NCBI GenBank assembly: GCA_036245525.1
Contig: BTPG01000002.1
Span: forward strand, 120,557,582-120,621,581
Origin: Semisulcospira habei
Taxonomy: Eukaryota > Mollusca > Gastropoda > Semisulcospiridae
Length of the DNA: 64,000 nt
Direction of reading: 5' to 3'
This document shows positions 30,101 to 56,647 of this stretch, piece by piece; positions within the stretch are counted from its first letter, which is position 1, and every line of letters begins with the position of its first letter. The notes under the pieces are model-generated. The model saw only the letters and a program-made list of their open reading frames with translations, ran no database searches and was not told the DNA's origin. The position numbers and the translations under genes were made by a program.

Positions 30101-33100
30101 TCAAAGACTGTAAACCAGAATGACTATTCAGAGACCAAAATGAGAAAACTTGAACATGGTCAAAATCCTGGAAATACAAACTGCTTCAGCCAGATTCCTG
30201 AAAATGCAAATTGTCACAAAGTGGAGAGCAATTCTATATCACAAACGTCTCCCGAGCCAGTAAAGTGTGATGATAAATCCAAAGAATTATCAGGAGCTTG
30301 GAAGTGGTTGGAAGAACTGAGGGACAGTGTGCAAAACAAACCATACATTCTGGACATTGACCTGGACTTCTTTTCAACCAAGGATCCCTTCCGAAATGGC
30401 TGCACGCCAGAACATACAGCTTTGTTGAGAGAATTGTTTGGCTACCAGCTTCCAAAAGATCATTCTACTCAGGTAATGTGCACATTGTAAATCATTCCGT
30501 CTGTGAAAGTACAGTGGGGGAGAAATCAACCAAGATCCTTAAGGAGTAGTGTTTGATTAGCGCCAAGCTAATATCTTTGAAGGATCATGCTTCACAACAA
30601 CTTCATTGTGGCATTTGCAGGATGCTTGTATGGTGTCTGGGACTTGGTGCGTTTGTTATTCTGCTGTGAATTAACTCTTTACATCCTGAGGATGACATAC
30701 ATTTTAATTTTAGATCCTTTGCGGTCTGGTCACAATTCTGAAGTTGGATCGACCATGATAGTTCAAGGGTGCTGTCAGAATAGCTTGGCGCTTACAGGCA
30801 CCAAGCTATTCTGTCACCACCCTTGAACTATCATAGTCAATCCATATCATGTTGCAACGTGTCAGGGCTCTATGGGTTAGGGGAGATAATGTGGTTTTAC
30901 TGTACTTGTTAATTGTACATGATTCAGATCTGTAGACAGAAGCATTTTGGTGGGTGGGGGTGGGGGGTGGGGGGTGAGATTTGTTTAGTTTAAAATTGAA
31001 AGTGTCCGTTTTTGAAGAAGGGGTGGGGTGGGACAGGGGTTTCTGCAATCACTTTCTACATGTAGTGCTGCATGTGAAACACACATCAGCATCATTTGGT
31101 CTGTTGTTTGTCTCTGCAGGCCCTGCTGGAATTTACAGAAGCCAGACAGGCTCAGCTTAAGGAACTGGAGAAAGCCTTTGAGACTCTGCAGCAGGACCCT
31201 AGCAAAATTCCACACATTCAGCAGCCACACAGGTCAGGTCCACAGTTTTGTCAAAGCTACCAAGGGATCACAATACTAACAAGCTGATTGTTGGTGTAAC
31301 GCACGCAGACTTGCCCCCAGTCGCACGTACAGACTCTCGCACAACAGACGCATACACCACCGCCACTGACTCAGACGGGCGCATTCACGCGGTAAAACAC
31401 AACTCACGGGCTTCTTTTCCAACGAAACTTTTATACACAATAAATAGCGAAAACGCTTAAAAGATTATCAAACTATTTACACTACACCTTCCCCACTACC
31501 AACATCTCAACATCACATCCACATACACAATATCAATGCCAGGCTAGGTAGTAGTATCTCACACTCCAACCTGTTTGGTTTTCTCGCCCGGTTACGTTCA
31601 GTCCTTTCACGTCTAGGCGTGCAAGTCCTTCATACGCTCCCGAGTCGTCCGGTCTCTCGTACCGTGGACGTCCTCGTTACTCGTACCGTATCTCCGCTGT
31701 GACCCAAGTGTCTCGGCACCGGTTGCTCACTCCCCGAGTGAAGAGATGGAGAGATGACCTCGCATTAGGTCCCTGGTGACTTGACTCCAACTCCGACAAG
31801 CACTCTGAACAGTAATAAAGCCCTAAATCATAACACTTGCTAAACACACACACATATTGGATGATATGAGAAACATTACGTAACCTGGCTGATACAAATA
31901 ACTCACGTTCATTCACACACACACGTGCTTCATAACCCGAACTACTTTCGTAACACCCCCATATCTCTGTCACTACCTTGAAACAGACTATAATCTAACA
32001 TTCTCGCTATACGTTATCCCATACGCTGGAAAAGACTATACTTAACCACGTACTATCTTCATAACGACTTAACCTACACCCCTCACATTCCTTTAGTTAT
32101 CCATCTCGGTAAATAACTGTATACGAAAAACACCGGTTACCTCACTGAATTCCAAACCAACATAACTGAACCAAACCAGACAATGCTATACAACCAAATT
32201 ACTCTTACCAACGCATACTGTCTTTAACTACGCAACTATCAATAATACATATGAAAAACATACCTGTATTCTAGGTTTCAGAGTCTTGGAATACGGGCTA
32301 AGGTATCTCGCACAGGTCTGTACCCACTGACAGTAAAACCCGCACTAACGTATTTAGACCTTTGACAGACTGAGCTCTCGCCTAGAACTCACTAGAACCC
32401 GCCGTGTCTTACAGATTCCAAGTGGCCCACGTGCCACCACGGACTATCATCACAAAGAAACCGCTAACCAAAACTGTACTGTATTAAACCTACTGTCAGA
32501 ACCCTATGCGTGAGCATAGAGTTTCATCACAATTCCCCCTTCCTCGGGGAAAAAAACGACCGAGTTTCTTTTTAAGAATACTGGACGCAATACACTATCC
32601 TATCACAACCAAAAAAACTATCCACAGTCTTAAACCCCAACGCACATCCTTGGATCACACAGCGAACGCGAAAACAGAACTAACGCGCTAAAACCTCCAG
32701 ACAGGAAAACGATCCAACGACTGCCCACACAATCGCGAGACTCAACAGTCACCGATCTACCCAAAGACGAGGTGGTGAGCGGCATTTCTGTCTGCAACAG
32801 AACTATGCCGTCCCTGGCCAACCTGACCGGTGGGCCAAACCCGCGGACCGATCCCCTGACTCCGAACAGCAACAAAAAGGTCCCTCTGAATACAACTTCG
32901 CTTGCTTCGAGCTCCCGTCGCCCCTGATGCGACTAAACCGTGCGGAACGTGAGCTCGCTTAATCGCGCCGACCCTACCGATGGCTGGCTGCACACCCTTC
33001 ATGTTACCGAGAACTAAGTCAACTACTGGCTCGTCGATGACACAAGAAATCAGATCTTACTTACTTACGCCTGTCGCCCCTACCTGGGTATAGGTCGTCG

Positions 33101-56647: not shown

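Follow-up and report, generated by a model that had tools for sequence, protein, structure and literature searches.

How does an intron of a conserved gene come to exceed 24 kb, and can the elements that fill it be placed in their order of arrival? The window analyzed here, a stretch of 64,000 nucleotides from the gastropod Semisulcospira habei (contig BTPG01000002.1), raises both questions through a C5orf22-like (UPF0489) gene and its intron 5 (31233..55257, plus strand, GT/AG boundaries, 24,025 bp). Positions 30400-36000 and 38900-56500 were read, the window was compared with itself, chosen reading frames were searched with Pfam, and junctions were tested by script. By our count, the intron contains 15 insertions belonging to about nine families. 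Judged from the sequence, it very probably grew by serial insertion, each mobile element inserting into one already in place.

The deepest chain consists, from the outside in, of a gypsy relic, a minus-strand LINE-X, a plus-strand LINE-X, a DIRS element, a hAT5-like element, and a SINE, i.e., six levels. The original prediction had proposed up to seven nested elements; the nest itself was recovered, but seven is reached only by counting the intron as a level. A seventh element was rejected, as nothing more was found within the innermost SINEs by self-comparison or by reading. The predicted side branches were all located within intron 5: an L2-like LINE, an I-type LINE, a 190-bp MITE, and additional SINEs. 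In the L2-like LINE lie a dimer of SINEs and a short 3′ end of another LINE, the I-type LINE carries a SINE, and one of the other SINEs is inserted in another.

The host gene and its intron

The last base of exon 5 is 31232 and the first of exon 6 is 55258; the spliced join is in phase. The spliced peptide matched UPF0489 (PF12640) with an E value of 6.2e-6 and 27.1 bits (cut-off, 27). A protein search with the C5orf22-like peptide returned 170 proteins at an E value of ≤0.001. Among the best 120 of these, the top one was a 476-amino-acid protein, P0121, which aligns with 66% of the query at 92% identity, followed by proteins of Batillaria attramentaria and then Littorina saxatilis, and the PF12640 domain is common to all three. 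From these matches and those of the LINE-X reverse transcriptase (below), a caenogastropod would be the likely source of the DNA. The alignment crosses the exon 5/6 join in 52 of 54 compared proteins (P0121 to P0174) and is free of gaps there in the three closest, including P0121. As P0121 maps onto seven coding exons, the 24,025-bp intron is the fifth coding intron. The whole nested block would be spliced out, and the host gene would thereby tolerate it. As seen here, one intron of a conserved gene can reach 24 kb almost wholly through mobile DNA. Fold-back repeats at 55497-55581 and 56198-56387 flank exon 6 and the next intron.

Layers of the nest

The outermost layer is represented by two minus-strand pieces of a gypsy relic. 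The 3′ part (31295..33056) contains a long terminal repeat (LTR) of 1,237 bp (31295-32531) with TG...CA ends on the minus strand and an adjoining purine-rich tract; the gag side (53648..55257) encodes two zinc knuckles (PF00098), and its first 12 bases are a copy of the target duplication of the minus-strand LINE-X. The pieces agree in phase when read apart. An open stretch beside the LTR is in frame with gag and appears protease-like by eye, although it matched no Pfam family. A single LTR was found, where assignment to gypsy would call for two and a target duplication: self-comparison revealed neither a 5′ LTR nor a right edge on the right side, most of pol is absent, and no target duplication was seen by eye. 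As the right edge was not located, the original intron length was not established, and the predicted residual intron of 150 to 160 bp has no firm basis. The gypsy copy would be the earliest arrival, most of its pol and its 5′ end having been lost afterward.

The two LINE-X copies lie in opposite orientations, one inside the other. The minus-strand copy consists of its 3′ end (33057..33475), with a tail at 33057 and the duplication copy for the plus-strand LINE-X at 33463-33475, and the remainder (49982..53647), which is broken by the SINE-in-SINE insertion. It was predicted to lie in the gypsy relic with a target duplication, and 12 bp are shared at 33045/53648. The plus-strand copy is 5′ truncated and is present in four pieces: 33476..34637, the last 4 bases of which (ATTT) are common to the DIRS edge; 43164..43220, between the DIRS element and the L2-like LINE; 46924..46961, between the L2-like and I-type LINEs; and 48554..49968, which ends in the tail and begins with the 12-base duplication copy of the I-type LINE. 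The four pieces are in phase and without a stop until the terminal one. Insertion of this copy into the minus-strand LINE-X, also predicted, is marked by 14 shared bp at 33463/49969, one extra base included, and the rejoined site matches an uninterrupted copy. LINE-X carries the domains PF14529, PF00078, and PF20049, a 3′ tail, and duplications of 12 to 14 bp; with an endonuclease, a reverse transcriptase, a tail, and a target duplication, it is a non-LTR LINE, which may belong to the RTE clade. In a separate protein search, the LINE-X reverse transcriptase (48447-49958) showed up to 69% identity over ∼90% of the query to Schistosoma-named proteins among the best 120 of 3,006 matches; fish and snail matches were similar to these, and transfer between snail and parasite lineages is a question that this raises.

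A DIRS1-like element (34634..43163, plus strand) interrupts the plus-strand LINE-X and is the best-shown layer of the nest: its empty site and both of its ends are present, and the circle junction is copied internally. Its edges are ambiguous within ATTT, and it measures 5,807 bp without the hAT-like and MITE inserts. The inverted terminal repeats (34639-34839 and 42931-43139) are 92.9% identical by self-comparison. The circle junction was predicted by joining the right end, shared triplet included, to the left end, and this sequence matched the internal complementary region (42799..42895, plus strand) at 95 of 97 bases without gaps. It also matched a second DIRS copy at 59551-59640 (88.9% over 90 bases). 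The empty site is present in the minus-strand LINE-X; only ATTT is shared at the DIRS edges, without a target duplication. The left flank used for rejoining was three bases too long and gave a 3-base gap; self-comparison places the edge at 34637. The original prediction of insertion into the plus-strand LINE-X without a duplication therefore holds, but its TTT core was rejected as undecidable, since a shared stretch of ATTT allows a core of ATT or TTT.

Reverse transcriptase (PF00078) was detected in two DIRS frames, at 21.9 bits (below the cut-off of 29.6) and 44.3 bits; the split over two frames indicates that the copy is broken. Two frames examined for a tyrosine recombinase (41458-42231 and 42075-42716) gave no Pfam match; a putative HxxR-like motif was noticed by eye. 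Terminal inverted repeats with an internal complementary region, duplication-free integration at a triplet, and reverse transcriptase identify the element as DIRS1-like. It would have joined the plus-strand LINE-X at a matching triplet by recombination of a circular form, catalyzed by a presumed enzyme. The second DIRS copy (59289-60870) is internally deleted and retains its own internal circle-junction copy. It could not provide an uninterrupted version of the hAT insertion site for comparison, as its match to the DIRS element in the intron covers only 41867-43165 and the ends.

Two smaller elements with inverted repeats lie in the DIRS element. One, predicted to be a hAT-like insertion with a CCGTC duplication, is a nonautonomous element of 2.5 kb (38992..41513); it has 11-bp inverted repeats beside a 5-bp CCGTC duplication (38987/41514), and the DIRS phase is equal on both sides. 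The combination of an 11-bp inverted repeat and a 5-bp duplication occurred twice in the real window; of 60 simulated windows, 1 produced it. The second case (25256-26749, duplication TTTAA) is likely an unrelated DNA transposon. No long frame for a hAT transposase was found in 38992-41513 beyond read-through of the edges. A canonical hAT element was rejected because the duplication is 5 rather than 8 bp; hAT duplications are usually 8 bp, but groups with 5 and 6 bp, hAT5 and hAT6, are described in the sections cited of PMC12730594. The 2.5-kb element would be hAT5-like, a placement by its ends only; like hAT5 as described there, it has CAG...CTG ends and a 5-bp duplication, but it differs in that no transposase was found in it. 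The other element, a 190-bp MITE (35338..35527) with 14-bp inverted repeats and a 6-bp CTTTAA duplication, may be hAT6-like. Both would be expected to have moved by cut-and-paste transposition, with the enzymes presumed from the inverted repeats and the 5- and 6-bp duplications.

The L2-like LINE (43221..46923, minus strand) is 5′ truncated and retains endonuclease and reverse transcriptase domains by Pfam, its clade being assigned by eye. A proper target duplication is absent at 43220/46924, where only GCA is shared. A short LINE 3′ end (44540..44952, minus strand) with a TAAGAA tail lies within it; the empty site shares TAAGA, and the L2 phase resumes. The I-type LINE is represented by its 3′ part (46962..48553, minus strand). 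Its RNase H domain (PF00075) is split by a SINE into two pieces, at profile positions 6 to 76 and 101 to 140 (25.8 and 24.0 bits; cut-off, 25.8), the profile continuing beyond the SINE, and reverse transcriptase is absent from this truncated copy.

SINE-C copies occur at several levels. The hAT-like element contains one on the minus strand (40235..40614) and one on the plus strand (40753..41139), the latter at the innermost level; the predicted SINE-C insertion with a duplication was found for both, with 15 shared bp at 40220/40615 and 40738/41140, respectively. A minus-strand tandem dimer with a 307-bp unit (45972..46668) lies in the L2-like LINE, and a plus-strand copy (47488..47875) lies in the I-type LINE. 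In the minus-strand LINE-X, an outer plus-strand copy (52389..53172) is broken by an inner one, also on the plus strand (52534..52913). The units of the dimer are 99% alike behind a single 10-bp duplication, which would fit either a dimer made by template switching or a tandem duplication after insertion. A search of SINE-C for a Pol III-type head (tRNA, 5S, or 7SL) found no tRNA and no Rfam family at the gathering score (subthreshold matches only), and two exact patterns of SINE-C gave 0 matches each in IMG/VR. With their 3′ tails or repeats and duplications of 10 to 15 bp, the LINE-X copies, the I-type LINE, and the SINEs would be expected to have inserted by target-primed reverse transcription, carried out by presumed enzymes.

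Junctions and rejoined sites

Twelve junctions were tested for exact shared stretches against random pairs of positions, of which 5 of 4,947 shared ≥12 bp and 30 shared ≥10 bp. Nine of the 12 junctions share exact stretches of 10 to 15 bp, which supports the view that most levels are marked by target duplications. In addition to the four already given for the two LINE-X copies and the two SINEs in the hAT-like element, these are the outer SINE in the minus-strand LINE-X (52375/53171, 14 bp), the SINE in that SINE (52522/52914, 13 bp), the I-type LINE in the plus-strand LINE-X (46950/48554, 12 bp), the SINE in the I-type LINE (47476/47876, 12 bp), and the SINE dimer in the L2-like LINE (45962/46674, 10 bp). 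The other three are those of the hAT-like element (5 bp), the MITE (6 bp), and the L2-like LINE (GCA).

The interrupted sequence was predicted to resume on the far side at each step. Elements were excised, and 10 rejoined sites with 150-base flanks were compared within the window. Five crossed the junction in alignment with an independent uninterrupted copy: the minus-strand LINE-X at the plus-strand LINE-X; the plus-strand LINE-X at the DIRS element, the L2-like LINE, and the I-type LINE; and the outer SINE. For the remaining five (the outer SINE in the minus-strand LINE-X, both SINEs in the hAT-like element, the SINE dimer in the L2-like LINE, and the SINE in the I-type LINE), the window contains no uninterrupted copy that is independent; they gave only self-matches, so these sites rest on their duplications and, where coding, on phase. 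Phase was equal on both sides at the coding breaks checked (the hAT-like element in the DIRS element, the SINE in the I-type LINE, and the SINE dimer and short LINE in the L2-like LINE), each such agreement having a one-in-three probability by chance.

A false nest could in principle be produced by misjoining of repeats during assembly, and the near-identical inverted LINE-X arms (94 to 97%) and many SINE copies are indeed hard to assemble. Nevertheless, misjoins would yield neither exact end duplications nor a resumed phase, and they would not give the DIRS element an empty site in agreement with its circle junction; we regard an assembly artifact as very improbable.

Ages of the layers and order of insertion

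Nesting dates an insertion relative to the lineage of the host copy, not relative to the arrival of that host at the locus. As read from the sequence, the insertions at this locus form a branching partial order; the mutual order of the DIRS element, the L2-like LINE, and the I-type LINE is not given by nesting. The predicted relative dating series is therefore only partly supported: serial insertion, read inside out, is upheld, but the order branches rather than forming a single series, and one SINE exceeds its age bracket.

The bracket comes from the LINE-X pair. The two copies differ at 119 of 2,644 sites (4.5%; 89 of 2,460 non-CpG sites). The minus-strand copy is the older, so the plus-strand copy would carry at most about half of the differences (2.25%) if rates are equal, and the same ceiling applies to anything later inserted into it. 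SINE differences were scored against a consensus built from the same eight SINE-C copies. Four of the five copies within the plus-strand LINE-X fit the ceiling (0 to 1.7%): the dimer units (0/321 and 1/313), the SINE in the I-type LINE (6/347), and the plus-strand SINE in the hAT-like element (3/347). The two in the minus-strand LINE-X (outer, 10/348; inner, 4/348) are in the order required by nesting, and a copy outside the nest has 0/348. The minus-strand SINE in the hAT-like element (21/340) does not fit, so that for the hAT layer the order of nesting may not be the order in time.

Two explanations of this copy were weighed. It probably derives from an older source, a divergent SINE-C subfamily active after the arrival of the DIRS and hAT-like elements, in which case nesting would equal time order throughout. 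Of 18 comparable columns (some of which lie beside an indel), the outgroup at 28.2 kb has the state of this SINE in 4, indicating that part of the difference reflects such a source; 3 of the 21 differences are common to other SINE-C copies, and the clustered multibase differences resemble source differences. Against this, 18 of the 21 are private among the eight copies, and the outgroup keeps the consensus state at 12 of the 18 columns (a third state at 2). A possible but distinctly less favored explanation is that the hAT5-like element brought the SINE, already old, into the DIRS element as a passenger, which would make it older than several of the layers that enclose it. The plus-strand LINE-X is at most ∼2.25% old, and the excess above this ceiling has a P value of 5e-5 for all 21 changes, 0.001 for the 18 private changes, and 0.006 when two outgroup-matching changes are also removed (16 left). 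The internal copy in the DIRS element differs from its own ends at only 2 of 97 positions (Fisher P = 0.04 against 16/355), and a precedent is found in MER6, a DNA transposon that spread a domain derived from a SINE, as described in the cited part of PMC6887750. The excess weakens, however, when clusters are merged to 14 changes (P = 0.025) or when 16 changes are set against a bound of 2.7% (P = 0.026), and it vanishes with the whole 4.5% as the bound (P = 0.13 for 21 changes and 0.46 for 16). Further, the consensus was built from the copies that were scored, several of the changes are clustered, and the hAT-like element is known from one copy. MER6 likewise holds SINE sequence inside a DNA transposon, but it is mariner derived and present in many copies according to that account, while the hAT5-like element is a single copy for which carriage is only suggested.

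If the passenger explanation were true, nests would mix insertions made in place with imported subnests, and substitution load, compared with a bracket from the enclosing pair of copies, could separate the two kinds within one locus. Because cut-and-paste elements can import passengers, a SINE that may be out of order calls for care with any method in which nesting stands for time.

Relation to known nests and elements

The nest is a clear and unusually well documented example of an already known phenomenon. Clusters of nested transposable elements are in standard use as a relative clock, as in the cited sections on REANNOTATE (PMC2672092), TinT (PMC3014933), and interruption analysis (PMC2517846). 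As in those descriptions, elements lie within elements, the interrupted sequence resumes on the far side, and nesting is translated into relative age; the methods are described as genome-wide, whereas a single locus is treated here, with evidence from individual junctions and, at five sites, from uninterrupted copies in the same window. The cited parts of the nesting literature (methods and survey papers) contained no measured nesting depth for animals, and six levels are therefore not claimed to be unusual or a record. In genomes that have been little studied, deep, well-marked nests provide relative orders of activity for families of elements.

For the DIRS element, close counterparts exist in molluscs. 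DIRS1-like elements have a 3-bp junction and recombine with an identical triplet without a duplication, and Aplysia has DIRS elements with ATT ends, according to the cited sections of PMC3266345. The element described here resembles AcaDIRS1 and AcaDIRS2 of that account in its inverted terminal repeats, right extension, internal circle-junction copy, possible ATT-type ends, and lack of a duplication, and its 5,807 bp compare with 5,808 bp for AcaDIRS2 (PMC3266345). In contrast to these, the present copy is broken (reverse transcriptase in two frames), carries the MITE and hAT-like inserts, and has candidate recombinase frames without a Pfam match. The locus, with an empty site, an integrated element, and a circle-junction copy together, provides a compact picture of duplication-free integration.

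Other mobile DNA is present elsewhere in the window. A second, much younger gypsy element (4230-11652) has 838-bp LTRs with one difference and an open frame of 1,401 amino acids. A LINE at 12240-15158, unlike LINE-X, has an open frame of 972 amino acids with endonuclease and reverse transcriptase. A family of short fold-back repeats is found at 3555-3716, 30732-30857, 57890-58058, and 62438-62567, and a 236-bp palindrome at 25314-25549 is 99% self-complementary.
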